Origin: Cellulomonas sp. Leaf334
Lineage (GTDB): Bacteria; Actinomycetota; Actinomycetes; Actinomycetales; Cellulomonadaceae
Direction: 5' to 3'
Length of the DNA stretch: 64,000 nucleotides
Assembly: GCF_001424195.1 (NCBI RefSeq)
Contig: NZ_LMOO01000001.1
Location: 1,842,812 to 1,906,811, forward strand
Under the pieces are notes generated by a model, which saw only the letters and a list, made by a program, of their open reading frames with translations, was not told the DNA's origin and ran no database searches. Shown here piece by piece: positions 7,080 to 52,965 of this stretch. Every line of letters begins with the position of its first letter. Position 1 is the stretch's first letter. The position numbers and the translations under genes were made by a program.

Positions 7080-7583
7080 GTGCTGATCCGACCCGAACGC
7101 CCCGACGACGTCGACGCGATCGATCGGCTGACCGTCGCCGCCTTCGAGCCGCAGTGGTTCAGCGACGGTTCCGAGGCGCCGATCATCCGGGCGCTGCGGG
7201 CGTCGGGCGACCTGACGCTCTCGCTCGTGGCGGAGGACGACGGCGACGTCATCGGGCACGTCGCGTTCTCGCCCGTGACGATCGACGGGTCGCACGACGG
7301 CTGGTTCGGGCTCGGGCCGATCTCCGTCCGGCTCGACCGGCAGCGGCGGGGTGTCGGTCGGGCACTCGTGGCTGAGGGTCTGCGCCGGTTGCGGGAGAGC
7401 GAGGCGCGCGGCTGCGCGCTCATCGGTGATCCGACCATCTACCACCGACTGGGCTTCCGGGGCGACGGCACGCTGTCGCACCTCGGACTGGACCGGGCCT
7501 CCGTCCAGCACATCACCTTCTCGGGCCCGTCGCCGCGTGGCGAGCTGCGGTTCGCGCCTGCGTTCGACGCCGCGGGTCACTGA
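7080..7583 (+). CDS. GNAT-family N-acetyltransferase
   Basis: The 167-residue protein begins MLIRPERPDDVDAIDRLTVAAF, a standard GNAT opening, and has the acetyl-CoA loop LGPISVRLDRQRRGVGRALV (Q/RxxGxG/A) followed by the ALIGDPTIYHRLGFR strand-helix typical of the YhbS/COG3153 group. I chose GTG 7080 because GGAG lies 6 nt upstream; GTG 7056 is also in frame. Substrate unknown. Confidence 0.88.
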   Translation: MLIRPERPDDVDAIDRLTVAAFEPQWFSDGSEAPIIRALRASGDLTLSLVAEDDGDVIGHVAFSPVTIDGSHDGWFGLGPISVRLDRQRRGVGRALVAEGLRRLRESEARGCALIGDPTIYHRLGFRGDGTLSHLGLDRASVQHITFSGPSPRGELRFAPAFDAAGH

Positions 7584-7601
7584 GCGCACCCTCTCCACCG
7601 G

Positions 7602-8621
7602 TCAGCGGAGCAGCTGCCGGATCTCCCGGGTGTCCCCGTCGACGGTCACGGTCGCCAGCGCGCCGTTGACCAGCGGAAGGTGTGGCGGGACGTGCCCGAT
7701 CTCCACGTCGAAGACGATCGGGAGGTGAAGTCGCCCGAGAGCGTCGAGGACGGCTTCCCGCTGCGTGAGCCTGGGGTGGTCGGGTGCGTTCGTCCGGCCG
7801 ACGAGCACCGCGCGGGCGTGGTCGAACCACCCCGCGAGGCGCAGGCCGTGGAGGTTGCGACAGATCGTGGCGGCGTCGTCCCCGGCTGCCTCGACGTAGA
7901 TGACGAGCCCGTCCTGGGCGTGCTCGCGACCGAACGCAGCGACATCGCCGTAGGGCGTCCCGGCGAGGTTGCACAGGGTCTCGACGCACCCGCCGACGAG
8001 TCGTCCGGTCACGTGGAGGGACTCGGCGCCGTGCAGGGTCCAGCGCCCCTCACCGACCGACTTCCAGGTCGTGGCGCGTGCGTCGTCCTCGAACCGCCAC
8101 CAGTCGGCGATCAGACCCGAGTCTCGCTGCACGTGCGGGCCGGTCCCGGCGACGACCTCGAGCCAGCTCACCAGCCCCGGCGGCACCTCGTAGGGGGTGT
8201 CGGCGAGGTTGTCCCCGTGCACGGTGGCCCAGCCCAACCGGGTCGTGATCGGGACCAGGACGGTGGACAGGTCGGAGAAGCCCACGAGCCACGTCGGCTC
8301 CGCGGCGGCGAGAGCGTCCCAGTCCAGGAGGTCCACCAGGTCGATCGCGGTCTCGCCGCCCCATGGTGGGACGACGCACCGGATCGTGGGGTCGCACAGC
8401 ATCGCGGTGAGCTCGGCCGCACGGTCGGCTGCCGGCCCGGCGGTCATGCCCGTGCCGTCCATCAGGTCGCCGACGACGACGTCGAACCCGGCGTCGCGCA
8501 GCCAGTCGACGCAGAAGGCGATCCGGGCGGCCGCCTGCCCGCCGACCCCGGACGACGGAGACGTGACACCGATCCGGTCGCCGTGCGTGAGCGGTTGCGG
8601 GAACCTGAGCATGCGCGCCAT
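7602..8621 (-). CDS. S66-family peptidase (LD-carboxypeptidase / MccF-like)
   Basis: The 339-residue protein matches peptidase family S66: IGVTSPSSGVGG near the N terminus, the nucleophile elbow GFSDLS (Ser ~116), a later acidic residue in GLVIYVEAAGDD, and a His in IGHVPPHLPL, giving the Ser-Glu-His triad of this family. No signal peptide is present. S66 proteins split into muropeptide LD-carboxypeptidases and MccF-type enzymes that inactivate microcin C-like aminoacyl nucleotides. The WGGETAIDLVDLLDW stretch fits the MccF branch better, but this is not decisive. It is divergent from a second serine peptidase (S51). Confidence 0.88.
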   Translation of the reverse strand: MARMLRFPQPLTHGDRIGVTSPSSGVGGQAAARIAFCVDWLRDAGFDVVVGDLMDGTGMTAGPAADRAAELTAMLCDPTIRCVVPPWGGETAIDLVDLLDWDALAAAEPTWLVGFSDLSTVLVPITTRLGWATVHGDNLADTPYEVPPGLVSWLEVVAGTGPHVQRDSGLIADWWRFEDDARATTWKSVGEGRWTLHGAESLHVTGRLVGGCVETLCNLAGTPYGDVAAFGREHAQDGLVIYVEAAGDDAATICRNLHGLRLAGWFDHARAVLVGRTNAPDHPRLTQREAVLDALGRLHLPIVFDVEIGHVPPHLPLVNGALATVTVDGDTREIRQLLR

Positions 8622-20087: not shown

Positions 20088-21032
20088 CTACGCGGCCCGC
20101 AGCAGCCACCGGGCGAGCGCGTCGGAGATCGGCAGCCCCGCAGCGGTCTCGTACCAGGAGTAGCCCGGGGACGGGTTGACCTCGAAGCACACGATGCGCC
20201 CGTCGTCCGCGAGCAGCAGGTCGACGCCGGCGAACGGCAGGTCGAGGTCGCGGGCGAGCCGGACGCACCGCTCGGCGACGTCGTCGGGCAGCGCGTACGG
20301 CGCGAGCGTGGCGTCCTCGCCCACCTGGGCGCGGGCGTACCGGTAGTCGGTCGCGGACGAGTCGACGATCGCCGCGTACACCTCGTCGCCGACCACGTGG
20401 ACGCGCACGTCCCTCCCGCGGACGTGCTCCTGGAACTGCACCGGGCACCAGCGGATCAGCTCGAGCCGCTCGGCATCCCGGTCCAGGTCCACGACGCTGA
20501 CGATCGAGCGGACCCCGCTCACCGACTTGTAGATCGCTCCGCGGTGCGCGCGGACGAACGCCCGCGCCTCGTCCGGGTCGTCGGTGACGACCGTCTCGGG
20601 GGTGTCGAACCCGCCCTGCTGCACGAGCTGCGCCTGGTAGGGCTTGGACATGTTGGAGGCCATGGCGGACAGCCGGCTCGCGACCCTGCAGCCCAGCGCG
20701 TCGGGAGCGGCCTCGGTGAAGGCCATCAGGGCGTCGAACCCTGCGCGGGCGCGTCGCATCGCGGGATCGTCGGCGGCCGCACCCCGGAGCTCGGGCACGA
20801 GCTCCGGCTCGATCGGCCGCACGTAGACGCCGGCGACGTCGCGCACGTCGGTCGTCCGGTCCCCGACCCGGATCGACCCACGCAGCTCGCCGCCCGAGAC
20901 GCCGATGTCGACGTGCTGCTGCAGGAACTGACGGGGATGGACCACCACCGGGTCGGCGCCGCACCGCGCCAGGGCCCCCAGGAGCAGCTCGACCGGGCTC
21001 TCCGTCGGCACCCCCCACACCAGGACGCTCAC
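20088..21032 (-). CDS. ATP-grasp ligase (RimK / graspetide-maturase-like)
   Basis: The 314-residue protein has a pre-ATP-grasp domain (MSVLVWGVPTESPVELLL, VAGVYVRPIEPEL), a lid and ATP-binding region (GAIYKSVSGVRSIV, CPVQFQEHVRGRDVRVHVV) and the Mg-binding end with FAGVDLLLADDGRIVCFEVN plus NPSPGYSWYE (ExN motif). All core ATP-grasp residues look present. This class activates a carboxylate as acyl-phosphate and joins it to an amine or hydroxyl, as in RimK or the microviridin-type maturases. The GTG start at 21032 overlaps the degenerate ATP-grasp gene by 4 bp. The likely substrate is the neighbouring protease with its Lys/Asp/Glu repeat; that is inference. Confidence 0.85.
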   Translation of the reverse strand: MSVLVWGVPTESPVELLLGALARCGADPVVVHPRQFLQQHVDIGVSGGELRGSIRVGDRTTDVRDVAGVYVRPIEPELVPELRGAAADDPAMRRARAGFDALMAFTEAAPDALGCRVASRLSAMASNMSKPYQAQLVQQGGFDTPETVVTDDPDEARAFVRAHRGAIYKSVSGVRSIVSVVDLDRDAERLELIRWCPVQFQEHVRGRDVRVHVVGDEVYAAIVDSSATDYRYARAQVGEDATLAPYALPDDVAERCVRLARDLDLPFAGVDLLLADDGRIVCFEVNPSPGYSWYETAAGLPISDALARWLLRAA

Positions 21033-21802
21033 CGGGCCACCACCCTCGCGTCGAGACCGATCAGGTCCTGGACCAGGGCGTCGCCCGCGAGCATCAGGTC
21101 GGGCAGCGGCGTCATCCCCGCGAACCACCACCGGCCCTGGGCAACCACGACGTCGATGCCGATCAGTGCCTCGGCTGCACCCACGGCGGCTGCGAACCGT
21201 GCGACCGCCGACGGGAAGCCCTCCGGCAGCCGTGCGCCGACCCGACGCTCGACACCCTCGGCGTCCACGATCCGCCCGTCGAGGACGACGAGGTGCGCGA
21301 CACCCGCGGCCGGCGCGGCGCGTCGCACCGCTGCCTCGAGGAGCCAGAGCGTGGGCGAGCCCGCCCCGACGTCGGCGTCCGGCACGTCCAGCCCGGCCCG
21401 GTGGGCGACGACCGCGGCGCGCAGCGGGTGCGGCGACGGGCCGGCGAGGCAGGTGGGCGAGGGACGGTTGCGCACCACGCCCGGCACGGCTGCCAGCCAG
21501 CTCAGCGTGAACGCCGTCAGCTCCGCCCCGGCGTAGTCGCGCTCGCCCGGCTCCGCCCACTGCCAGGCGGCCGTGGGTGGCGACAGGAGCCTGTTGACGA
21601 CGAGGTCGGGCTGGTCGATCACTCCGCCCTCGCCGAGGTCGACGACGGCACGCGTGCCGTCGCGGCCGATCCACTGCGATCGTCGCCGAGCGAACGACAG
21701 CAGCCCGGAGGTGACGAGCACGGACTTCTGACCGAGCTCGCGGAACCGCGAGTCCAGCCACAGAGCCGCACTGTCGTCGAGGTCGCACAGGACGACGAAC
21801 AT
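21029..21802 (-). CDS. Degenerate ATP-grasp-like partner protein
   Basis: This 257-residue protein reads like a shortened ATP-grasp homologue. It has a pre-ATP-grasp region ending LVVNRLLSPP, a connecting stretch VVRNRPSPTCLAGPSPHPLRAA followed by VVAHRAGLDVPD (similar to the RimK helix before the ATP lid), then GIDVVVAQGRWWFAGMTPLPDLM at the position of the ATP-grasp metal-binding motif. The ExN residues are missing (GMTP instead) and most of the ATP-binding core is absent. It is coupled to the intact ATP-grasp gene by a GTGA overlap. A non-catalytic partner that recognises substrate is the best guess. Confidence 0.65.
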   Translation of the reverse strand: MFVVLCDLDDSAALWLDSRFRELGQKSVLVTSGLLSFARRRSQWIGRDGTRAVVDLGEGGVIDQPDLVVNRLLSPPTAAWQWAEPGERDYAGAELTAFTLSWLAAVPGVVRNRPSPTCLAGPSPHPLRAAVVAHRAGLDVPDADVGAGSPTLWLLEAAVRRAAPAAGVAHLVVLDGRIVDAEGVERRVGARLPEGFPSAVARFAAAVGAAEALIGIDVVVAQGRWWFAGMTPLPDLMLAGDALVQDLIGLDARVVAR

Positions 21803-21820
21803 GGGATTCCCCTCGGTGGG

Positions 21821-21853
21821 GACCCGGCCGGTGACGTCGCCACCGGCCGGGTC
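21821..21853 (-). terminator. Strong hairpin between the protease and the ATP-grasp pair
   Basis: GACCCGGCCGGTG (21821-21833), a 7-base loop, and CACCGGCCGGGTC (21841-21853) make a perfect 13-bp stem. It starts 9 nt after the protease stop and ends 18 nt before the next start. No T-run follows on the minus strand, so it may act as an mRNA-stabilising or partial terminator element that keeps the enzyme genes at lower expression than the protease gene. Confidence 0.65.
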
Positions 21854-21862
21854 GCCGTCTGC

Positions 21863-23263
21863 TCAGCCCAGAAGGTTGTCGAGGTCGGACTTCGCGGCCG
21901 CGGCGTCGGTGACCTGACGCTCGGCCTCGGCCCGCAGCGCCGCGATCTCGTCGGTCGAGAGCTCCTCCTCGGCGCTGAACGCGCTGGAGGTCAGGTCCGG
22001 GCGCAGCTCGGGCGAGATGAAGCTCTCGAGCGAGCCGAGCCTGCCCTCGAGCTCGGCCAGGCGGTCGGAGAACCCACCGCCGCCGAAGCCCGGACCGCCG
22101 CCGGGGTCGCGGGGGTCGAACGGGATGTCGGGACCCTTGAACACGTCCCTGATGTCCTTGAGCCGCTTCCCATCGATGATGAGCTCCTTCTTGAGCTCCT
22201 TGTCCTTGATGATCTCCTTCTTGAGCTCCTTGTCCTTGATGATGTCCTTGCGGAGCTCCTTGTCCTTGTCCTTGATGAAGTCCTTCCGACCGTCCTTGAT
22301 GTCCTTGATGATCGACTTCCCCAGGGGGATGGCGATGTCCAGCTCGGTCAGGACGCTCGCGATCGGGTTGCCGACGGTGCTCGTGCCGGCTCCCGCGAAC
22401 AGCAGGGCGACGACGGCACCGGTGGAGTCGACGATGACCGAACCGGAGTCGCCGCTCGCGGAGAACAGCGGGTTCTGCGCGGTGTCGGTGGCGATGCTCA
22501 CCTGGTCGGTGAGGGTGTGGACGCCCAGGCCGTCGCCGTAGTCGACGTTCACGGTGAGGGACAGCCCGTCGACGGAACCGTGCGTCAGACCGGTCGTGCG
22601 GCCACGCTTGCGGACCGTCATCCCGAGGGTCGCCGGCTTCGTGCCGTTGACCGTCCCGATGTCGACGACCGTTCCTGCCGTCGTCCGGCCGGCGTCGATC
22701 GAGAGGACCGCGCCGTCGATGTGCGACGACAGGACGGCGCGCAGGATCGCCCCGAACTCGTCGCCGGGCACCGTGCCCGTGTCGCCACGGCTGGGCTGCA
22801 CCTGGCGGTCGCCCACGCTCCACCCGTCGTCCACGCACGCCACGTGGAAGTTGGTCAGGGCCGCCTTCTGCCCGCTGACGTTGTCCGTGACGATCGCGCC
22901 CAGCGTGCCGGAGTAGACGAAGCCGCCGATGGCCCTGCTCGGGCCGATGCTGATGCCGCCCTGGAGGGTGGCGTAGTGCGTCGTGTCCGCCTGAGCGCTG
23001 ACGGTCAGCGGCGTGCGGACGACCTGCAGCTCGTAGGTGCGCTCCAGCACGTCCGTGGCGACGCCGTCGATCGACGCCGGAACCCTCTGCGCCTTCGGCA
23101 CGGTGGCCTTCTTCTTCTCGACGTGGACGCGGATCGCGACCTCGTCCGTCTGGACACCCCCCACGACCTTGTACCCGACATCGATACCGGTCACCCCGGG
23201 TCGTGCGAGGTACTCGTCCTCGACGCGCTCCTTGATGGCGACCAGCTCCGCAATGGAAGACAT
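21863..23263 (-). CDS. Trypsin-like serine protease with Lys/Asp/Glu-rich repeat tail
   Basis: The 466-residue protein starts at ATG 23263 (GAGGGGG upstream). Residues ~10-75 form an N-terminal domain (PGVTGIDVGYKVVGG, then VAIRVHVEKKK) seen in NAL1-like bacterial trypsin homologues. The protease core holds the triad: His140 (ALTNFHVA), Asp183 (HIDGAVLSID) and Ser273 (SGDSGSVIV). Residues ~317-377 are a highly charged helical repeat with three KDKEL(K/R)K(E/D)-type 10-residue units, then a Gly/Pro hinge (PGGGPGFGGGG) and a C-terminal coiled-coil-like segment. There is no signal peptide. The next genes encode an ATP-grasp pair that may modify the repeat (inference). Confidence 0.85.
   Translation of the reverse strand: MSSIAELVAIKERVEDEYLARPGVTGIDVGYKVVGGVQTDEVAIRVHVEKKKATVPKAQRVPASIDGVATDVLERTYELQVVRTPLTVSAQADTTHYATLQGGISIGPSRAIGGFVYSGTLGAIVTDNVSGQKAALTNFHVACVDDGWSVGDRQVQPSRGDTGTVPGDEFGAILRAVLSSHIDGAVLSIDAGRTTAGTVVDIGTVNGTKPATLGMTVRKRGRTTGLTHGSVDGLSLTVNVDYGDGLGVHTLTDQVSIATDTAQNPLFSASGDSGSVIVDSTGAVVALLFAGAGTSTVGNPIASVLTELDIAIPLGKSIIKDIKDGRKDFIKDKDKELRKDIIKDKELKKEIIKDKELKKELIIDGKRLKDIRDVFKGPDIPFDPRDPGGGPGFGGGGFSDRLAELEGRLGSLESFISPELRPDLTSSAFSAEEELSTDEIAALRAEAERQVTDAAAAKSDLDNLLG
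22178..22267. repeat. Three 30-bp tandem repeats inside the protease gene
   Basis: Units 22178-22207, 22208-22237 and 22238-22267 are near-identical 30-bp copies, each ending GAGCTCCTTGTCCTT on the plus strand. They encode the 10-residue Lys/Glu/Asp units of the protease tail. Flanking shorter Lys-Asp stretches look like diverged extra copies. Confidence 0.85.
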
Positions 23264-23390
23264 GGACCGACCCCCTCGTGTGCACCATCGTCGGATGAGC
23301 GGACGCCCACCCACGAGACAGGAGCGCGGCCGCGACAGAGGTGATACCCGACGACGGGCGCCCCCCCGGCGGGGGTGGGACGATGGCGTG

Positions 23391-23612
23391 ATGGCACTGA
23401 CGTACGACGAGGCGGTCGCCGTCCAGCGCGCGCACGAGCCGCGGCTCATCGAGCTCGACGGCGTCAACGCGGTCGGCGTGAAGCAGACCGACTCCGGCCT
23501 GGTGCTCGAGGTCACCGTCTCCCCGGACGCCGACCTTCCCGCCGAGCTGGACGCCGCCGAGCTGGACGGTCTGCCGCTCAAGGTCGTCCGCGGCGGGTAC
23601 ACGCTCCAGTGA
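23391..23612 (+). CDS. 73-residue protein resembling the protease N-terminal domain
   Basis: This small protein is divergent from the protease gene (127 bp apart). Its sequence (VQRAHEPRLIELDGVNAVGV, LVLEVTVSPDADLP, ELDGLPLKVVRGG) aligns by eye with protease residues ~10-73: PGVTGIDVGYKV, VAIRVHVEKKK, SIDGVATDVLERT. It therefore looks like a free-standing copy of the N-terminal domain. A free copy could act as an inhibitor, chaperone or targeting domain for the protease; this is inference. There is no signal peptide. The start is ATG 23391. Confidence 0.7.
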   Translation: MALTYDEAVAVQRAHEPRLIELDGVNAVGVKQTDSGLVLEVTVSPDADLPAELDAAELDGLPLKVVRGGYTLQ

Positions 23613-24551: not shown

Positions 24552-24881
24552 ATGACACCCCTGGCGCACGGGGAGAGTGCGGCGTCGCTCCGTCGGCGGG
24601 CGTCGGCGCTGCGGGACGCGGCGGCCCGGGGTCAGCGCATCGCCGGCTCGCTGGGGACCTGCCTGGACGGGGACGTCGAGACCGCCCGGTCGGCCGGGCT
24701 CTGGTACGGGACCTACGCCCGGGACACCACAGCCGCTCTCGCGGAGCAGCGCGACACCGTGCGCGAGATGGCCGAGGACCTGCTCGCCGACGCCGGCTCC
24801 TGGCTCGGTGAGGCGCAGCGCCTGGAGGACCTCGCCGACGAGGTCCAGCGCGCGGCAACCGTGCCGGCGGGGGCGGGATGA
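24552..24881 (+). CDS. WXG100-like helical protein (type VII-associated)
   Basis: The 109-residue protein is almost wholly helical with a central turn containing a W-x-G element (SAGLWYGTYA, about residue 55). That is the layout of ESAT-6/WXG100 substrates, although it lacks the very short size of EsxA. A Gly/Ala tail (VPAGAG) ends it. Its stop overlaps the start of the calpain gene by 4 bp, so the two are made together. It is probably the secretion partner or chaperone of the protease. I see no ESX core genes (EccC, EccD, MycP) in the window. Confidence 0.68.
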   Translation: MTPLAHGESAASLRRRASALRDAAARGQRIAGSLGTCLDGDVETARSAGLWYGTYARDTTAALAEQRDTVREMAEDLLADAGSWLGEAQRLEDLADEVQRAATVPAGAG

Positions 24882-26347
24882 GCTACACGGGCTTCGACGT
24901 CGAGCGGCTGCGCGGGTTCGCCGCGGACCTGCGCCGCACCGGGGCGAGCGCCGGCGACCTGCGCCGCGACGTCGCGGCGGTGCTGGACGAGGCGGAGGAG
25001 GCGCTGCGCGGTCGGCCCGCCACGACCAGCCCGGCGCTGCGTCGGACCCAGGGCTTCCTCCCGCTGGGGCTGCCGTCGTCGCTGGCCTGGTCGCTGCCGG
25101 ACGTCGCCGGGAGCATCGAGCGCCGGTCCGACCACCTCGAGGCCTGCCGGGTCCTGTTCGAGGACGGCCACGTGGTGAGCCCCCAGCTCGTGTTCGAGGA
25201 CGCCGAGCCACCCGACGCGTCGAAGGTGCAGGACGCGGTCGACGCGCTCGCGGCGTTCCCCGACCTGGACACCGGCATCAACGGCAACCGGGACGACCTC
25301 AGGCGCATCGCCGACCTGCTGACCGACCTCACCGCGGCGGAGCTCGACCTCCTCCTGGACGAGGCGTCCGAGACCGACCTGCACGCGTTCGGCGAGGCCG
25401 TCGCGGACACCTCCGACTCCGGCTGGTCGCCGTTCGACAGCAACGGCCTGCCGGTGGGAGAACGCGTCGCGCTGGCCGGCGACCTGCTCGCCCTCGCGGG
25501 ATCGACCCACCTGGACGACCTGGCCGACGCCTTCCCGTGGATGACGCCCGGCTTCGACACCACCGACGTGTTCCTCGACGGCGCCAACCCGCAGACCGGT
25601 GAGGACGCGAGCGGCATCACCTACGGCATCCCCGAGGGTCCGCTGTTCGCCGACGGGGTCTCCAGCACCGACGTGTACCAAGGGCGCCTGGGCGACTGCT
25701 GGTTCATCGCCTCCCTGGCGGCGACGACCCAGATGGACCCGGACTTCGTCACCCGCAACATCCGCGAGAACGCCAACGGCACGATCTCGGTGCGGCTCTG
25801 GGACCACGACGGCACCGCACGGTGGGTGACGATGACGCGCGACCTCCCGCTGGCCGACGACGGCTCACCGCTCGGGGCGCACGGCGACGGCGAGCTGTGG
25901 CCCGCCTACTACGAGAAGGCGTTCGCGCTGCTCTACGAGGAGGACAAGGGAGGGGCCCCCGACGGGAAGGACGGCGACCCGCTGTACGACAGGTCCGAGC
26001 AGGGCACGTACGGCGCGCTCGAGTGGGACTGGACCGAGCAGGCGCCCCCGTACGTCTCCGGGAACGAGTCCCGCGGCCTCGACGTGGACTTCGAGGACGT
26101 GAAGGACGCGTTCGACTCCGGCTCCCCTGTCATCGTGGCGTCGTCGGACGACAAGGACGACGTGCCGGAGCACCTGCAGCCCGGCTACTTCGGGCGGCAC
26201 GTCTACTACGTCACCGAGATCACCGACGACCACGTGCTGCTCGCCAACCCCTGGGGTGCCGACTACGAACCGCTGCGGCTCACGCCTGCGGAGTTCGAGG
26301 CGCACTTCGACTCACCCCAGGCCATCGACCTGGGAGACACCCCATGA
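24878..26347 (+). CDS. Calpain-type (C2) cysteine protease with N-terminal helical domain
   Basis: The 489-residue protein has a helical N-terminal ~150 residues (FDVERLRGFAADLRRTGASA) that resembles type VII substrate leaders, then a calpain catalytic domain: Cys274 in YQGRLGDCWFIASLAA, His441 in GRHVYYVTEI, Asn457 in LLANPWG. All three catalytic residues are present. There is no Sec signal. The gene overlaps its neighbours on both sides by 4 bp. The most likely role is an exported or injected protease paired with the WXG-like protein upstream; a purely intracellular role is possible. Confidence 0.88.
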   Translation: MSYTGFDVERLRGFAADLRRTGASAGDLRRDVAAVLDEAEEALRGRPATTSPALRRTQGFLPLGLPSSLAWSLPDVAGSIERRSDHLEACRVLFEDGHVVSPQLVFEDAEPPDASKVQDAVDALAAFPDLDTGINGNRDDLRRIADLLTDLTAAELDLLLDEASETDLHAFGEAVADTSDSGWSPFDSNGLPVGERVALAGDLLALAGSTHLDDLADAFPWMTPGFDTTDVFLDGANPQTGEDASGITYGIPEGPLFADGVSSTDVYQGRLGDCWFIASLAATTQMDPDFVTRNIRENANGTISVRLWDHDGTARWVTMTRDLPLADDGSPLGAHGDGELWPAYYEKAFALLYEEDKGGAPDGKDGDPLYDRSEQGTYGALEWDWTEQAPPYVSGNESRGLDVDFEDVKDAFDSGSPVIVASSDDKDDVPEHLQPGYFGRHVYYVTEITDDHVLLANPWGADYEPLRLTPAEFEAHFDSPQAIDLGDTP

Positions 26348-49919: not shown

Positions 49920-51916
49920 CGGTCCCCGGCCGGCCCGACGACGCGCTCGCGCGGGTGCTGGGCCGGGAGCCGGGTGCGTTCGCGCTGCTGCACCGTCCCG
50001 CCGCCGGGGGTGCGGGGACCGTCGAGGTGATCGCCGGGCCGGTCCGGTCCGCGTCGCTGCTGCGGGACCTGCCGCTGGCCGGCCCGACGGGACCACCGTC
50101 GGGACCGGACGGCACGCCGGGTGACCCCGAGGTCCTCGTCCTCGTCCCGTACCGCCAGGTCACCGAGCGCGGGTTCGCCGCCGTCGACGACCGCGAGCCG
50201 CTCCTGTGCCTGACGGTCGAGTCGTACGACCGCCTGCCCGTCGCCGACGTCGCCGCGCGCCTGCCCACCGCGACGGCTCCGCTCGTCGGCGGCTTCGACG
50301 TGTCCGACGACGAGTACGCGGACCTGGTGCGGACCGTCGTCCGGGACGAGATCGCCGCGGGTGCGGGCGCCAACTTCGTCGTCCACCGGTCCTGGGAGGG
50401 CCGGCTCGGCGGACCGGCGCTGACGTCGGCGCTGGCCGCGTTCCGTCGGCTGCTCCTCCAGGAGGTCGGCGCGTACTGGACGTTCCTCGTGCACACGGGC
50501 GACCGCACGTTCGTCGGCGCCAGTCCGGAGCGCCACGTCACGCTCGAGGGCGGCACGGCCACGATGAACCCGATCAGCGGGACGTACCGGTACCCGCCGA
50601 CGGGCTCGACGCTCGACGGCGTCCTCGACTTCCTCTCCGACGGCAAGGAGACGGACGAGCTCAACATGGTGCTCGACGAGGAGATCAAGATGATGTCCCG
50701 GCTGTGCCGTGACGTGCGGGTGCGCGGCCCGTACCTGCGCGAGATGGCGCGGCTGGCCCACACCGAGTACCTGGTCGAGGGACGCTGCACGGCCGACGTG
50801 GCGACGCTCCTGCGCGACACAATGCTGGCGCCCACGGTCACGGGCAGCCCGATCGAGAACGCGTGTCGCGTCATCGCGACGCACGAGCCGCGTGGCCGTG
50901 GCTTCTACAGCGGCTTCGTCGCCCTGGTGGGTCACGATGCCGCGGCGGCGCCGTGGGTCGACTCGGCGATCCTCATCCGCACGGCGGACGTGCGCGCCGA
51001 CGGCCGGCTGCGGGTGGGCGTCGGCGCGACGCTCGTTCGGCACTCGGACCCCGACGCGGAGGTCGCGGAGACGACCACGAAGGCTGCGGGCATCCTCGCG
51101 GCCTTCGAGCCGGAGCAGGTGTCCCGGTTCGGCCAGGAGGACGCCGTCACTCAGGCCCTGGCCCGGCGGGGGGCACGGATCTCCGGGTTCTGGCGGGGAC
51201 CGACGGGTCAGGCGACCGCGGCAGGTGGTGGACGCCGCGCAGTGGTCGTGGACGCGGAGGACGCGTTCACGCACATGATCGCGCGGCAGCTCTCGTCGGT
51301 CGGGTGGAGCACGCGCGTCGTGCCCTGGCAGGAGGCGACGGTCGACGACGTGCTGGGGGGCGACGTCGCCGTGCTCGGACCCGGACCGGGCGACCCGACG
51401 TCGCACGACCTCCCCCGGGTGAGCAGGGTGCGCGCGCTGGCGGGTGCCCTGCTGGAGGAGCGGGCGCCGTTCGTCGCGGTCTGCCTCGGCCACCAGGTCG
51501 TCGCGCAGCTCCTCGGCCTGCGCGTCCTGACGCACCCGACCCCGCAGCAGGGCCTGCAGCGCGAGATCGACCTGTTCGGGGTCCGTGAGGTGGTCGGGTT
51601 CTACAACAGCTACGTGGCGCTGTCGGGTGCGGACGGCCTCGACGTACCGGGGATAGGCAGCATCACCGTCGCGCGCGACCAGGCGTCCGGGCAGGTGCAC
51701 GCGGTGCGCGGCCCGTTCTTCTCGACCGCCCAGTACCACCCCGAGTCGGTCCTCACCCTGGGCGGTGAGCGCCTCCTGCGGGACGCGGTCGAGCGGGCCG
51801 TGCGCGGCGAGGGGCGTCCTCACGCGGCGAGCAGGCCCTCCAGCCGGTCGGCGGCGAGGGTGGCCCCGTCGGTGGCACGCAACGGCACGGCGACCACCTC
51901 GGCCGCGTCACGGTAG
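49916..51916 (+). CDS. phzE-like: PhzE-like ADIC synthase (chorismate-binding plus glutamine amidotransferase)
   Basis: The 666-residue protein fuses a chorismate-binding domain (~1-430; TFVGASPERHVTLEGGTATM, NPISGTYRYPP, DEIKMMSRLCRDVRVRG) to a class I glutamine amidotransferase (~440-635) with Cys523 (FVAVCLGHQVVAQLLG), His608 and Glu610 (AQYHPES). That order is PhzE, which makes 2-amino-2-deoxyisochorismate from chorismate and glutamine. PhzE proteins are ~630 residues; the last ~30 residues here (GRPHAASRPSSRSAARVAPS) are read opposite the convergent glycosyltransferase gene and look like run-on beyond a lost stop. Confidence 0.92.
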   Translation: MTVPGRPDDALARVLGREPGAFALLHRPAAGGAGTVEVIAGPVRSASLLRDLPLAGPTGPPSGPDGTPGDPEVLVLVPYRQVTERGFAAVDDREPLLCLTVESYDRLPVADVAARLPTATAPLVGGFDVSDDEYADLVRTVVRDEIAAGAGANFVVHRSWEGRLGGPALTSALAAFRRLLLQEVGAYWTFLVHTGDRTFVGASPERHVTLEGGTATMNPISGTYRYPPTGSTLDGVLDFLSDGKETDELNMVLDEEIKMMSRLCRDVRVRGPYLREMARLAHTEYLVEGRCTADVATLLRDTMLAPTVTGSPIENACRVIATHEPRGRGFYSGFVALVGHDAAAAPWVDSAILIRTADVRADGRLRVGVGATLVRHSDPDAEVAETTTKAAGILAAFEPEQVSRFGQEDAVTQALARRGARISGFWRGPTGQATAAGGGRRAVVVDAEDAFTHMIARQLSSVGWSTRVVPWQEATVDDVLGGDVAVLGPGPGDPTSHDLPRVSRVRALAGALLEERAPFVAVCLGHQVVAQLLGLRVLTHPTPQQGLQREIDLFGVREVVGFYNSYVALSGADGLDVPGIGSITVARDQASGQVHAVRGPFFSTAQYHPESVLTLGGERLLRDAVERAVRGEGRPHAASRPSSRSAARVAPSVARNGTATTSAASR

Positions 51917-52965
51917 GCGCGGTCGGCCAGGACACGGCGGATCGCGTCGCGGACCTGGCCGACCGGTGCGTCGGCGGGCAGCGAGAGGCCGGCCCCCCGC
52001 TCCTCGACGAACGCCGCGACCCGCGGCTGGTCGAGCGCGGCGACGCCCTCCTGGTCCGCGGCGCGGCCGGTCAGGCAGACGAGCGGGACGCCGTGGGAGA
52101 GCGCGCGCATGGCCGTGCCGTGCCCGCCGTGCGTCACGACGAGGTCCGCGTCGCGCAGCAGCTCGCCGTGGTCCGCGAACGGGACGGCGAGGACCGACGC
52201 GGGCACCCGGAGCCGGTCCGGGTCGACGGCGCCGATGGTCGCGACGCCCCGCACGGGCAGGTCTGCGAGGGCGTCGAGCGTGCTCTGGAGCTTGCCGACC
52301 GACGACTGGGCGACCGCCGTGCTGAAGCTCACGAGGACGAGCGGCCGGTCGTCGCGACGGTCGGTGCGCACGACGCGCGCGCGGGCGTCCGGTTCGAGCA
52401 CGGGCGCGCCGTGCCCCGCGGTGGGCCACGGGCTGCTGGGGGCGCTGTCGAGCTCCGCGAGGCTGTTGACGTGCAGGACGTCGGGACGTCCCCACAGTGT
52501 GCGCAGGTCGGGCATCGTGCCGAGGCCGGAGCGCTCACGGGCCTCGGCCTGGCCGCCCATGAGCACCTCCCAGCCGTCCACGGTGCGGTGCAGGAAGGTG
52601 TGCAGCATGACGGCCGTCGGGACGTCGCTGTCCGGGGTGACGTCGAGCGCGGCGCCGAACATCGCGTCGACGACGAGCACGTCGGCGCGCAGGTCCCGTC
52701 GCAGGTCGAGCACGTCCTGCCCGACGGCGGGAGACGTGAGGTAGCTGAAGAGGCGCCCGCGGGGGTGCCAGCCGAACTGGTCGGCGTGCCGGTAGGACGA
52801 CGGCAGCACGTGCGCCCGCATCCCGGCCGACTGCACGCGGGGGGCCATCTCAGGCCTCCCCGCGAAGCGCACGTCGTGCCCGCGGCGGACGAGCTCACGA
52901 CCGATGCCGATGCTGGGCGGGACGTTGCCGCCGCCGTCGAAGCAGGCCCACACGAACGTCGCCAC
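51820..52965 (-). CDS. UGT-type glycosyltransferase of the cluster
   Basis: I start at GTG 52965 (GAGGAG upstream), giving 381 residues beginning MATFVWACFDGGGNVPPSIG. The C-terminal half has the donor-binding signature VVTHGGHGTAMRALSHGVPL. Members transfer activated sugars to small acceptors, here presumably the aromatic acid product. It is convergent with the PhzE-like gene, with 97 bp of coding overlap, and divergent from the LacI gene. Confidence 0.87.
   Translation of the reverse strand: MATFVWACFDGGGNVPPSIGIGRELVRRGHDVRFAGRPEMAPRVQSAGMRAHVLPSSYRHADQFGWHPRGRLFSYLTSPAVGQDVLDLRRDLRADVLVVDAMFGAALDVTPDSDVPTAVMLHTFLHRTVDGWEVLMGGQAEARERSGLGTMPDLRTLWGRPDVLHVNSLAELDSAPSSPWPTAGHGAPVLEPDARARVVRTDRRDDRPLVLVSFSTAVAQSSVGKLQSTLDALADLPVRGVATIGAVDPDRLRVPASVLAVPFADHGELLRDADLVVTHGGHGTAMRALSHGVPLVCLTGRAADQEGVAALDQPRVAAFVEERGAGLSLPADAPVGQVRDAIRRVLADRAYRDAAEVVAVPLRATDGATLAADRLEGLLAA

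Follow-up and report, generated by a model that had tools for sequence, protein, structure and literature searches.

The stretch of Cellulomonas sp. Leaf334 DNA analysed here (64,000 nucleotides of contig NZ_LMOO01000001.1, hereafter the window) contains a unit of four genes: an ATP-grasp ligase of the graspetide type, a degenerate (pseudo) ATP-grasp partner, an S1 protease with a Lys/Asp/Glu repeat tail, and a protein of 73 amino acids (aa). We propose, with a probability of roughly 0.7, that the protease tail is a precursor, recognised via a leader-like C-terminal motif and cross-linked by the ATP-grasp. From the comparison of loci, the ligase very probably modifies the tail, and cross-linking is the likeliest chemistry of that modification. 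This comparison supports the original prediction, made from the letters of the window, that the ligase acts on the tail of a protease that carries its own substrate. More broadly, and with slightly less assurance, we consider it probable that a portable tail, stapled by the ligase, recognised through a C-terminal leader and swapped between catalytic domains, is present on full-size enzymes from six or more peptidase families, and on one non-peptidase, in Actinomycetota and a Burkholderia.

Specifically, the C-terminal tail would be a graspetide-like precursor that the protease itself bears. Aided by the pseudo-ATP-grasp partner, the ATP-grasp would dock, in the cytoplasm, on the C-terminal FIx4RPDL motif and link Lys to Asp or Glu side chains within the repeats, giving isopeptide bonds with a loss of 18 Da each; at related loci with Thr/Asp tails, esters would be formed. 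The result would be a finished enzyme whose tail is a covalently stapled module resistant to proteases. Since this type of tail is common to serine and metallo-proteases, we favour a generic role for the stapled tail, as a stalk, anchor or holding domain, over that of an active-site inhibitor.

Related loci (cited by L numbers) were collected by searching the window ATP-grasp in 150 genomes of the family (26 with a match at E ≤ 1e-10) and an ATP-grasp alignment in 396 genomes of the phylum and 347 of the order (9 and 8 matching at E ≤ 1e-40, window included; 5 or 6 best candidates per genome scored), together with two further families of 3 and 75 genomes (1 and 7 matching at E ≤ 1e-50). The neighbourhoods of the matches were read, that of G066 excepted. 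A crude purpose-made gene caller missed genes in L086, L097, L102, L116 and L197, where plain open reading frames (ORFs) were read. Protease searches in 200 family genomes found M6 proteases in 33, astacins in 11, V8-like proteases in 14 and NAL1-type (NARROW LEAF 1-like) proteases in 140.

On sequence comparison, tail and ligase are gained or lost together, the catalytic domain staying. Tail and motif occur in every one of the six close M6 homologues that have the ligase pair (L030, L031, L032, L158, L193 and L195, the last with a variant at the final motif position). The tail is found in 0/2 without the pair, L159 and L160, whose proteins are 74% and 70% identical to that of L031; absence of the ATP-grasp was established by neighbourhood reading for L159 (G166) and by whole-genome search for L160 (G020). 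Four of the 27 genomes with distant M6 proteases were read, with neither ATP-grasp nor tail. Among astacins, the tail is present in 10/10 intact genes with an ATP-grasp and in 0/3 without (L163, L164, L166); of the 11 astacins with an ATP-grasp, 8 came from the family search and three from the order-genome search. NAL1-type proteases with an adjoining ATP-grasp have the tail in 6/6 cases, and 0/12 other relatives that were read (L080 being cut by the contig end) have either; six of these twelve carry PFTE or PFTQ repeats instead. Tail and ATP-grasp also occur in all 13 readable V8-like loci (of 14; L184 is cut). Fisher tests made before L193 and L195 were added gave p values of 0.067 (M6), 0.0035 (astacin) and 5e-5 (NAL1-type), which are descriptive since homologues are not independent. 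In L161 (4614-5900), an astacin gene adjoining an intact ATP-grasp is frameshifted within its repeat tail, by decay or sequencing error.

In a tree of 38 ATP-grasps (midpoint root, for drawing only), 15 and 19 sequences form two well-supported clades; the other four, ligases from another family with large genomes, are nearer the clade of 19. The clade of 15 (partner-type) comprises loci with NAL1-type S1 proteases (6), M6 proteases (4) and stand-alone repeat proteins (L104 and L040), as well as L034, L105 and L097. The clade of 19 (partnerless) is found with astacins (11), V8-like S1 proteases (6; 13 loci when those found via the protease are added) and M43 proteases (2, one in Burkholderia stagnalis). 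The partner was recognised by sequence beside the NAL1-type proteases and four M6 proteases (in L032 by a short match, in L158 through the M6-type partner), by position and size only in L034, L040, L104 and L105, and by eye as a remnant at most in L097. The split ATP-grasp of L033, which is not in the tree, is accompanied by a partner and by a Lys/Glu-tailed protein that resembles Spherulin4 (Pfam E 0.0034, below cut-off). The clade of 15, L033 and the five loci of a prediction test (below) make 21 partner-type loci: 13 have a tailed protease, 3 another repeat protein, 1 short Ser/Glu-rich proteins and 3 none, and 1 is unreadable. ATP-grasp homologues mostly lying away from such proteases would have spoken against the original prediction, and the 13 of 21 leave it standing. 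Its expectation of a co-occurring trypsin-like protease held in that tailed proteases do adjoin, but these 13 are of three families (S1, M6, S8), not only trypsin-like.

Counting both clades, repeat tails beside such ATP-grasps occur on six peptidase families (NAL1-type S1, V8-like S1, M6, M12A, M43 and S8), as well as on the one Spherulin4-like protein and in the two stand-alone proteins. Pfam matches above cut-off in the scanned members were to M6, Astacin, M43, Trypsin_2 (the group we label V8-like) and Peptidase_S8; the L116 protease is called M43 by its likeness to that of L099. All 35 tail proteases keep the short active-site signature of their own family. The zinc peptidase families fall into a single clan, and S1 and S8 each into a different one. 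This diversity bears on the function of a stapled tail. As a tethered inhibitor, the tail would hold the producer's own protease off until release; graspetides are known as protease inhibitors (PMC8939145), and an enzyme with no apparent signal peptide would sit in the producer's cytoplasm. We find this unlikely, since M6 metallo- and S1/S8 serine proteases share tail type and motif, which is unsuited to a class-specific active-site inhibitor. The tail could also be cargo, the protease acting as a built-in maturation peptidase that cuts itself (or is cut) and frees a polycyclic peptide. This is possible, if tentative, and compatible with cross-linking: all graspetides characterised by 2022 are protease inhibitors (PMC8939145), self-release is feasible with any peptidase class, and two loci have the repeat without an enzyme. 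Against cargo speak the tail on the Spherulin4-like, apparently non-peptidase domain, and the inactivity of corallotide in a disc assay (PMC13097080).

Several of these loci have features of their own. The stand-alone Lys/Glu/Asp repeat proteins of L104 (4502-5209) and L040 (4722-5291), which carry the motif in N-terminal form, lie beside a partner-sized gene, the ATP-grasp and a 214-236-aa protein without Pfam match; the 236-aa neighbour in L040 matches neither Pfam nor PDB, a 2-oxoglutarate (2OG) oxygenase being a guess by eye only. L034 has a partner-sized gene and an ATP-grasp with two short neighbours rich in Ser and Glu (SSESSETSETSE; 7554-8375), perhaps precursors of another type. A single open frame in L038 (5824-7857) joins a V8-like protease, a Thr/Asp tail, the motif RPFVQAG and the ATP-grasp; it may be a natural fusion or an assembly deletion, in a genome that is 80% complete.

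The composition of the tails fits a cross-linking substrate. Like a graspetide core, they repeat nucleophiles and acids at enriched spacings, but within a full enzyme, not a short peptide. Measured as z-scores against shuffled sequences, which repetition inflates and to which homologues contribute non-independently, T followed by D at +5 is enriched both in V8-like tails (83 instances in 7 tails, z 21.5) and in L116 (7 instances, z 5.3). K followed by D or E at +5 gives z 12.6 in 6 astacin tails, 7.1 in 3 M6 tails and 5.9 in 2 NAL1-type tails; K followed by D at +4 reaches z 10.7 in astacins. L162 has many K-x3-D repeats, and KxxxD is the proved isopeptide motif of corallotide according to the available text of PMC13097080. 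In L099, K followed by D peaks at +3. Tail thresholds are passed by 24/34 foreground proteins and by 20/972 background genes, 19 of which are, judged by locus and length, cut copies or stand-alone tail proteins of the same ATP-grasp loci, and one is unrelated (L103:10938).

The tails also use Lys rather than Arg. K/(K+R) is 0.65-0.76 in the four Lys-type groups versus 0.10 (18/176) in 27 equally charged stretches elsewhere, from which stand-alone tail proteins were excluded. Charged repeats are able to form single helices. The published view of branches 7 and 8 of the ATP-grasps is that the protease frees peptides from other cellular proteins and that the ATP-grasp modifies those (PMC8939145); the tail would then be a charged spacer helix. 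Several results make this very unlikely. The catalytic domain is constant between loci that have both tail and ATP-grasp and loci that have neither, and stand-alone repeat proteins accompany an ATP-grasp gene and a gene in the partner position at loci where no protease was recognised. Lys stands where equally charged stretches use Arg, which a mere helix does not need, and Thr/Asp tails are poor candidates for charged helices.

A conserved motif is found C-terminal to the repeats. The 12-residue pattern [FY]I-x4-R-x-[DET][LV]-x-[GS] is present in 13/15 tail or precursor proteins of the partner type, the sequences from which it was derived, and in 0/999 other called genes (276,151 residues). 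Fused proteins have it 39-52 residues from their C-terminus, the two stand-alone precursors at residue 5; the motif is N-terminal, as in a graspetide leader, only in L104 and L040. In the partnerless clade, PF[VA][LQI] occurs at 49-87 residues from the end in 23/25 proteins (PFLL in L106; internal in L182, a fused ORF) and in 1/21 controls, there inside PFTQ-type repeats. The M43-type proteases of L099 and L116 both carry APFVL[AS]TPHHSMAW, with repeats rich in Lys/Asp in L099 versus Thr/Asp in L116; by sequence, the putative recognition end is constant and the core variable. When each family in turn was left out of a profile of the C-terminal region, M43 was recovered clearly (E 8e-7 and 1.4e-5). 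PFFARFL and Phhx(1,2)h have been reported as motifs of graspetide leaders (PMC8939145), and an engineered C-terminal leader is functional for the graspetide synthetase ThfB (PMC13003496). Before five new loci were read, we put on record what each should contain: an ORF resembling the partner, and a repeat protein in which the motif, frozen by then, occurs. This prediction came true strictly in 2/5, L193 (M6) and L196 (S8 subtilase) being exact fits, and in 3/5 by the core motif, as L195 has partner, M6 protease, tail and FIDASLRPDLAA, off at the last motif position. The remaining two are L194, with a run of N at the tail region, and L197.

The ligase itself resembles graspetide synthetases. 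Its best PDB match is the graspetide ligase PsnB (7drm, E 2.7e-24) and its best NCBIfam match TIGR04187 (147.1 bits, below the 350 cut-off). With the PsnB match, D-Y-R and E-V-N, the window ligase belongs with the graspetide ATP-grasps, and D-[FYM]-R and E-x-N are kept in 34/34 ATP-grasps of the two clades. The original prediction had described an intact RimK/graspetide-type ATP-grasp and a degenerate partner. The first is borne out by the RimK-like Pfam domain and PsnB, the second by the partner's structure model, which has the graspetide synthetase fold although a Pfam scan gave no match. A RimK-like enzyme might instead tag the tail, attaching free glutamate or other amino acids to its carboxylates or lysines without cross-linking it. 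The Pfam domain, RimK structures among the PDB matches (best E 3.5e-15) and the abundance of acids and amines in the tail are consistent with this. We nevertheless hold tagging to be quite unlikely: the RimK family model TIGR00768 scores 72.3 bits, far below its 143.4 cut-off, the PsnB match is stronger, D-[FYM]-R is kept throughout, and Thr/Asp tails and the regular nucleophile-acid spacing better fit intramolecular bonds. In PADLOC, partner, ligase and small protein were all without match. Relatives of the window ligase were found neither in plasmids (E 1e-25) nor in phages (E 1e-10); the L109 ligase as query found one relative in plasmids.

A number of results weigh against the tail as a ligase substrate with its own recognition motif. 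M6 and NAL1-type tails have +1 as their strongest spacing (z 12.2 and 8.9, respectively), ahead of +5; NAL1-type tails lack a +4 signal (K followed by D, z 1.3), and T followed by D peaks at +6 in L099; the inflation of the z-scores and the relatedness of the sequences count here as well. Outside their tails, NAL1-type and M6 proteins are themselves Lys-rich for these genomes, with intermediate K/(K+R) values of 0.41 and 0.38. With families left out in turn, astacins were recovered partly (best E 4e-5, worst 56) and V8-like proteins not; NAL1-type tails were recovered weakly from M6 (0.013-0.11) save L096 (9e-6), and M6 from NAL1-type at 0.01-0.16, the best controls being at 0.1 to 1.8. No tail protein was found in three of the 21 partner-type loci, namely L097, L105 (a 3.8-kb contig) and L197, the failure of the prediction test, which has by eye at most a shortened partner; L034 has its short Ser/Glu-rich proteins in place of a tail, and L194 is unreadable. 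ATP-grasps outside the two clades (L037, L102, L115, L098, L100, L101, L103) also have no tail protein beside them. Finally, a crude hydropathy scan found a signal peptide in none of the 35 tail proteases, which leaves export unexplained.

The unit in the window is laid out in the table below; all four ORFs of the original prediction are present, with correct coordinates. Protease, partner and ATP-grasp follow in this order of transcription on the minus strand, with 60 bases between the first two, and the gene of the 73-aa protein is divergent. The window genome has one match to the window ATP-grasp at E ≤ 1. The four-gene cassette recurs in five other genomes: Cellulomonas sp. Leaf395 (L043), C. 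humilata (L044), C. terrae (L045), a further locus of the same genus (L078) and one in another family of the phylum (L096; ATP-grasp 60% identity). As its flanks in L043 and L078 are unlike those of the window, the cassette lies in a different place there and is unit-like. By sequence, the region around it is partly the same as the window's in L044, which shares the adjoining DUF4126 gene and two genes further on, and in L045, which shares FtsX-type genes on one side and several others.

Features of the four-gene unit in the window (positions 5' to 3' on the forward strand)
Feature	Position	Strand	Remarks
Graspetide-type ATP-grasp ligase, 314 aa, GTG start	20088..21032	-	D-Y-R and E-V-N motifs kept
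Partner, degenerate (pseudo) ATP-grasp, 257 aa	21029..21802	-	4-base overlap with ligase start
NAL1-type S1 protease with repeat tail, 466 aa	21863..23263	-	Pfam, PDB, orthologue comparison
NAL1_N-like domain of protease, residues 1-84	23012..23263	-	Pfam below cut-off; profile comparison
Lys/Asp/Glu repeat tail of protease, residues 316-376; proposed cross-linking substrate	22136..22318	-
C-terminal motif FISPELRPDLTS of protease, residues 415-426; proposed recognition (leader-like) motif	21986..22021	-
73-aa divergent relative of protease N-terminal domain; proposed protease-specific inhibitor or chaperone	23391..23612	+

The window protease matches Pfam Nal1_C (PF25819) above cut-off (29.5 against 26.1 bits), NAL1_N (PF25608) below it (18.3 against 27 bits) and, in the PDB, NARROW LEAF 1 (E 9.9e-8). 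His140, Asp183 and Ser273 are invariant across 6 orthologues and presumably form the catalytic triad. The repeat is a period-30 array at 22177-22268 (3.1 copies, 91% matches) and has a 10-residue gap in L096, the most distant orthologue. An S1 protease with 10-residue Lys/Asp/Glu repeats, as originally predicted, agrees with the Nal1_C match and this array; the predicted structure has a mean pLDDT of only 34.9. By its Nal1_C match, the window protease is like NARROW LEAF 1 (PDB 7y77) and bacterial NAL1-like S1 proteases in its catalytic part, the NAL1_N match being weaker; it is unlike the 12 bacterial NAL1-like relatives that were read, which are without the Lys/acid tail and the ATP-grasp neighbour. 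In the window's family, NAL1-type proteases with long PFTE or PFTQ repeats and no adjoining ATP-grasp (L079, L081, L083, L085, L087, L092) lie between rplA-like and rplJ-like genes, beside proteins of about 210, 167 and 870 aa. The window genome has a second NAL1-type protease on contig 7 (L086, 5853-7601), with an apparent insertion in the catalytic domain; it was perhaps recently acquired, because a gene caller trained on window codons missed it.

The 73-aa protein had been described as a divergent copy of the N-terminal domain of the protease. Its length is correct and the relationship is a distant one: pairwise BLAST is not significant (E 0.16), and profile comparison gives a probability of 87.9 (E 3.2e-6 over 70 columns). 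Small genes also accompany other proteases. The one beside the M6 gene in L030, L031 and L158 is retained in L159 and L160, and L163 and L166 likewise keep the one that accompanies astacins, all four being without ligase or tail (the E-values come from very small databases). Because small neighbours track the protease type even where ligase and tail are missing, we take the 73-aa protein to act for the protease rather than for the ligase; it probably restrains or chaperones the window protease. The small protein beside astacins with and without ATP-grasp (L109, L112, L113, L114, L165, L163, L166) is YscW-like, a label based on a Pfam match below cut-off in L112 (E 0.0041) and on likeness to L112 in the other six.

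Elsewhere in the window (24552-26347), a small protein with a weak, below-cut-off Pfam likeness to EspC (E 0.0016) is followed by a calpain C2 protease-domain protein; the pair may represent a protease-bearing substrate of type VII secretion. A repeat finder reported short tandem repeats of 27 and 24 bases at 50231-50282 and 51996-52052.

If the proposal is right, the tails are the class of substrates that two branches of graspetide ligases have so far lacked, and they provide a native instance of the C-terminal leader design. Stapling of the kind known from ribosomally synthesized and post-translationally modified peptides (RiPPs) would extend beyond small peptides to whole enzymes, precursor finders that seek short ORFs would overlook this class, and tag and ligase would form a natural pair for covalent protein staples. 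Whole proteins have been cyclised after insertion into a graspetide precursor loop, according to the available text of PMC12291112. The puzzle of graspetide-type ligases with peptidase neighbours and no precursors becomes directly testable.

The original prediction knew of no described system with this combination. An association of ATP-grasp, truncated ATP-grasp and peptidase had been published in 2022 (PMC8939145), so that this much was described, albeit without a precursor. Nor does the statement hold for group 32 graspetides, mentioned in 2026 with diverse neighbouring proteases, for which maturation or resistance was suggested (PMC13097080). The idea of a precursor fused to an enzyme is unstated in the titles and abstract openings found, in a search outside most subscription journals.

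Judging solely from their published description, the present loci appear to be branches 7 and 8 of Makarova et al. 2022. These likewise combine ATP-grasps with peptidases of unrelated families, no precursors having been found according to the available text; branch 8 has an inactive truncated ATP-grasp and branch 7 a YscW-like protein (PMC8939145). As in branch 8, our partner-type loci have an inactive ATP-grasp beside the active one, and unrelated peptidases (S1, M6, S8) adjoin. The difference lies in the substrate: peptides from elsewhere were proposed for both branches (PMC8939145), and here it would be the peptidase's own tail with its C-terminal motif. Corallotide, of graspetide group 15, likewise has a long repeated precursor, several KxxxD isopeptide bonds and extra proteins beside the ligase; its precursor is a peptide of about 22 kDa, for which the available part of the account mentions no enzyme domain, and it carries a 2OG oxygenase and a beta-lactamase (PMC13097080). 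In the rosaritide pair MirB/MirC, the synthetase also needs a partner protein, but MirC is SurA-like with an RRE-like part, not a pseudo-ATP-grasp as here (PMC13097080, available text). The microviridin and plesiocin synthetases (MdnB/MdnC and PsnB; PDB 5ig8, 5ig9, 7drm) have their fold in common with the window ligase and partner. They make bonds between nucleophile and acid side chains, as proposed here, and microviridin leaders carry a PF-type motif (PMC8939145, available text). Their precursors are, as far as is known, short free peptides with N-terminal leaders and no fused protease, unlike the tailed enzymes described here.

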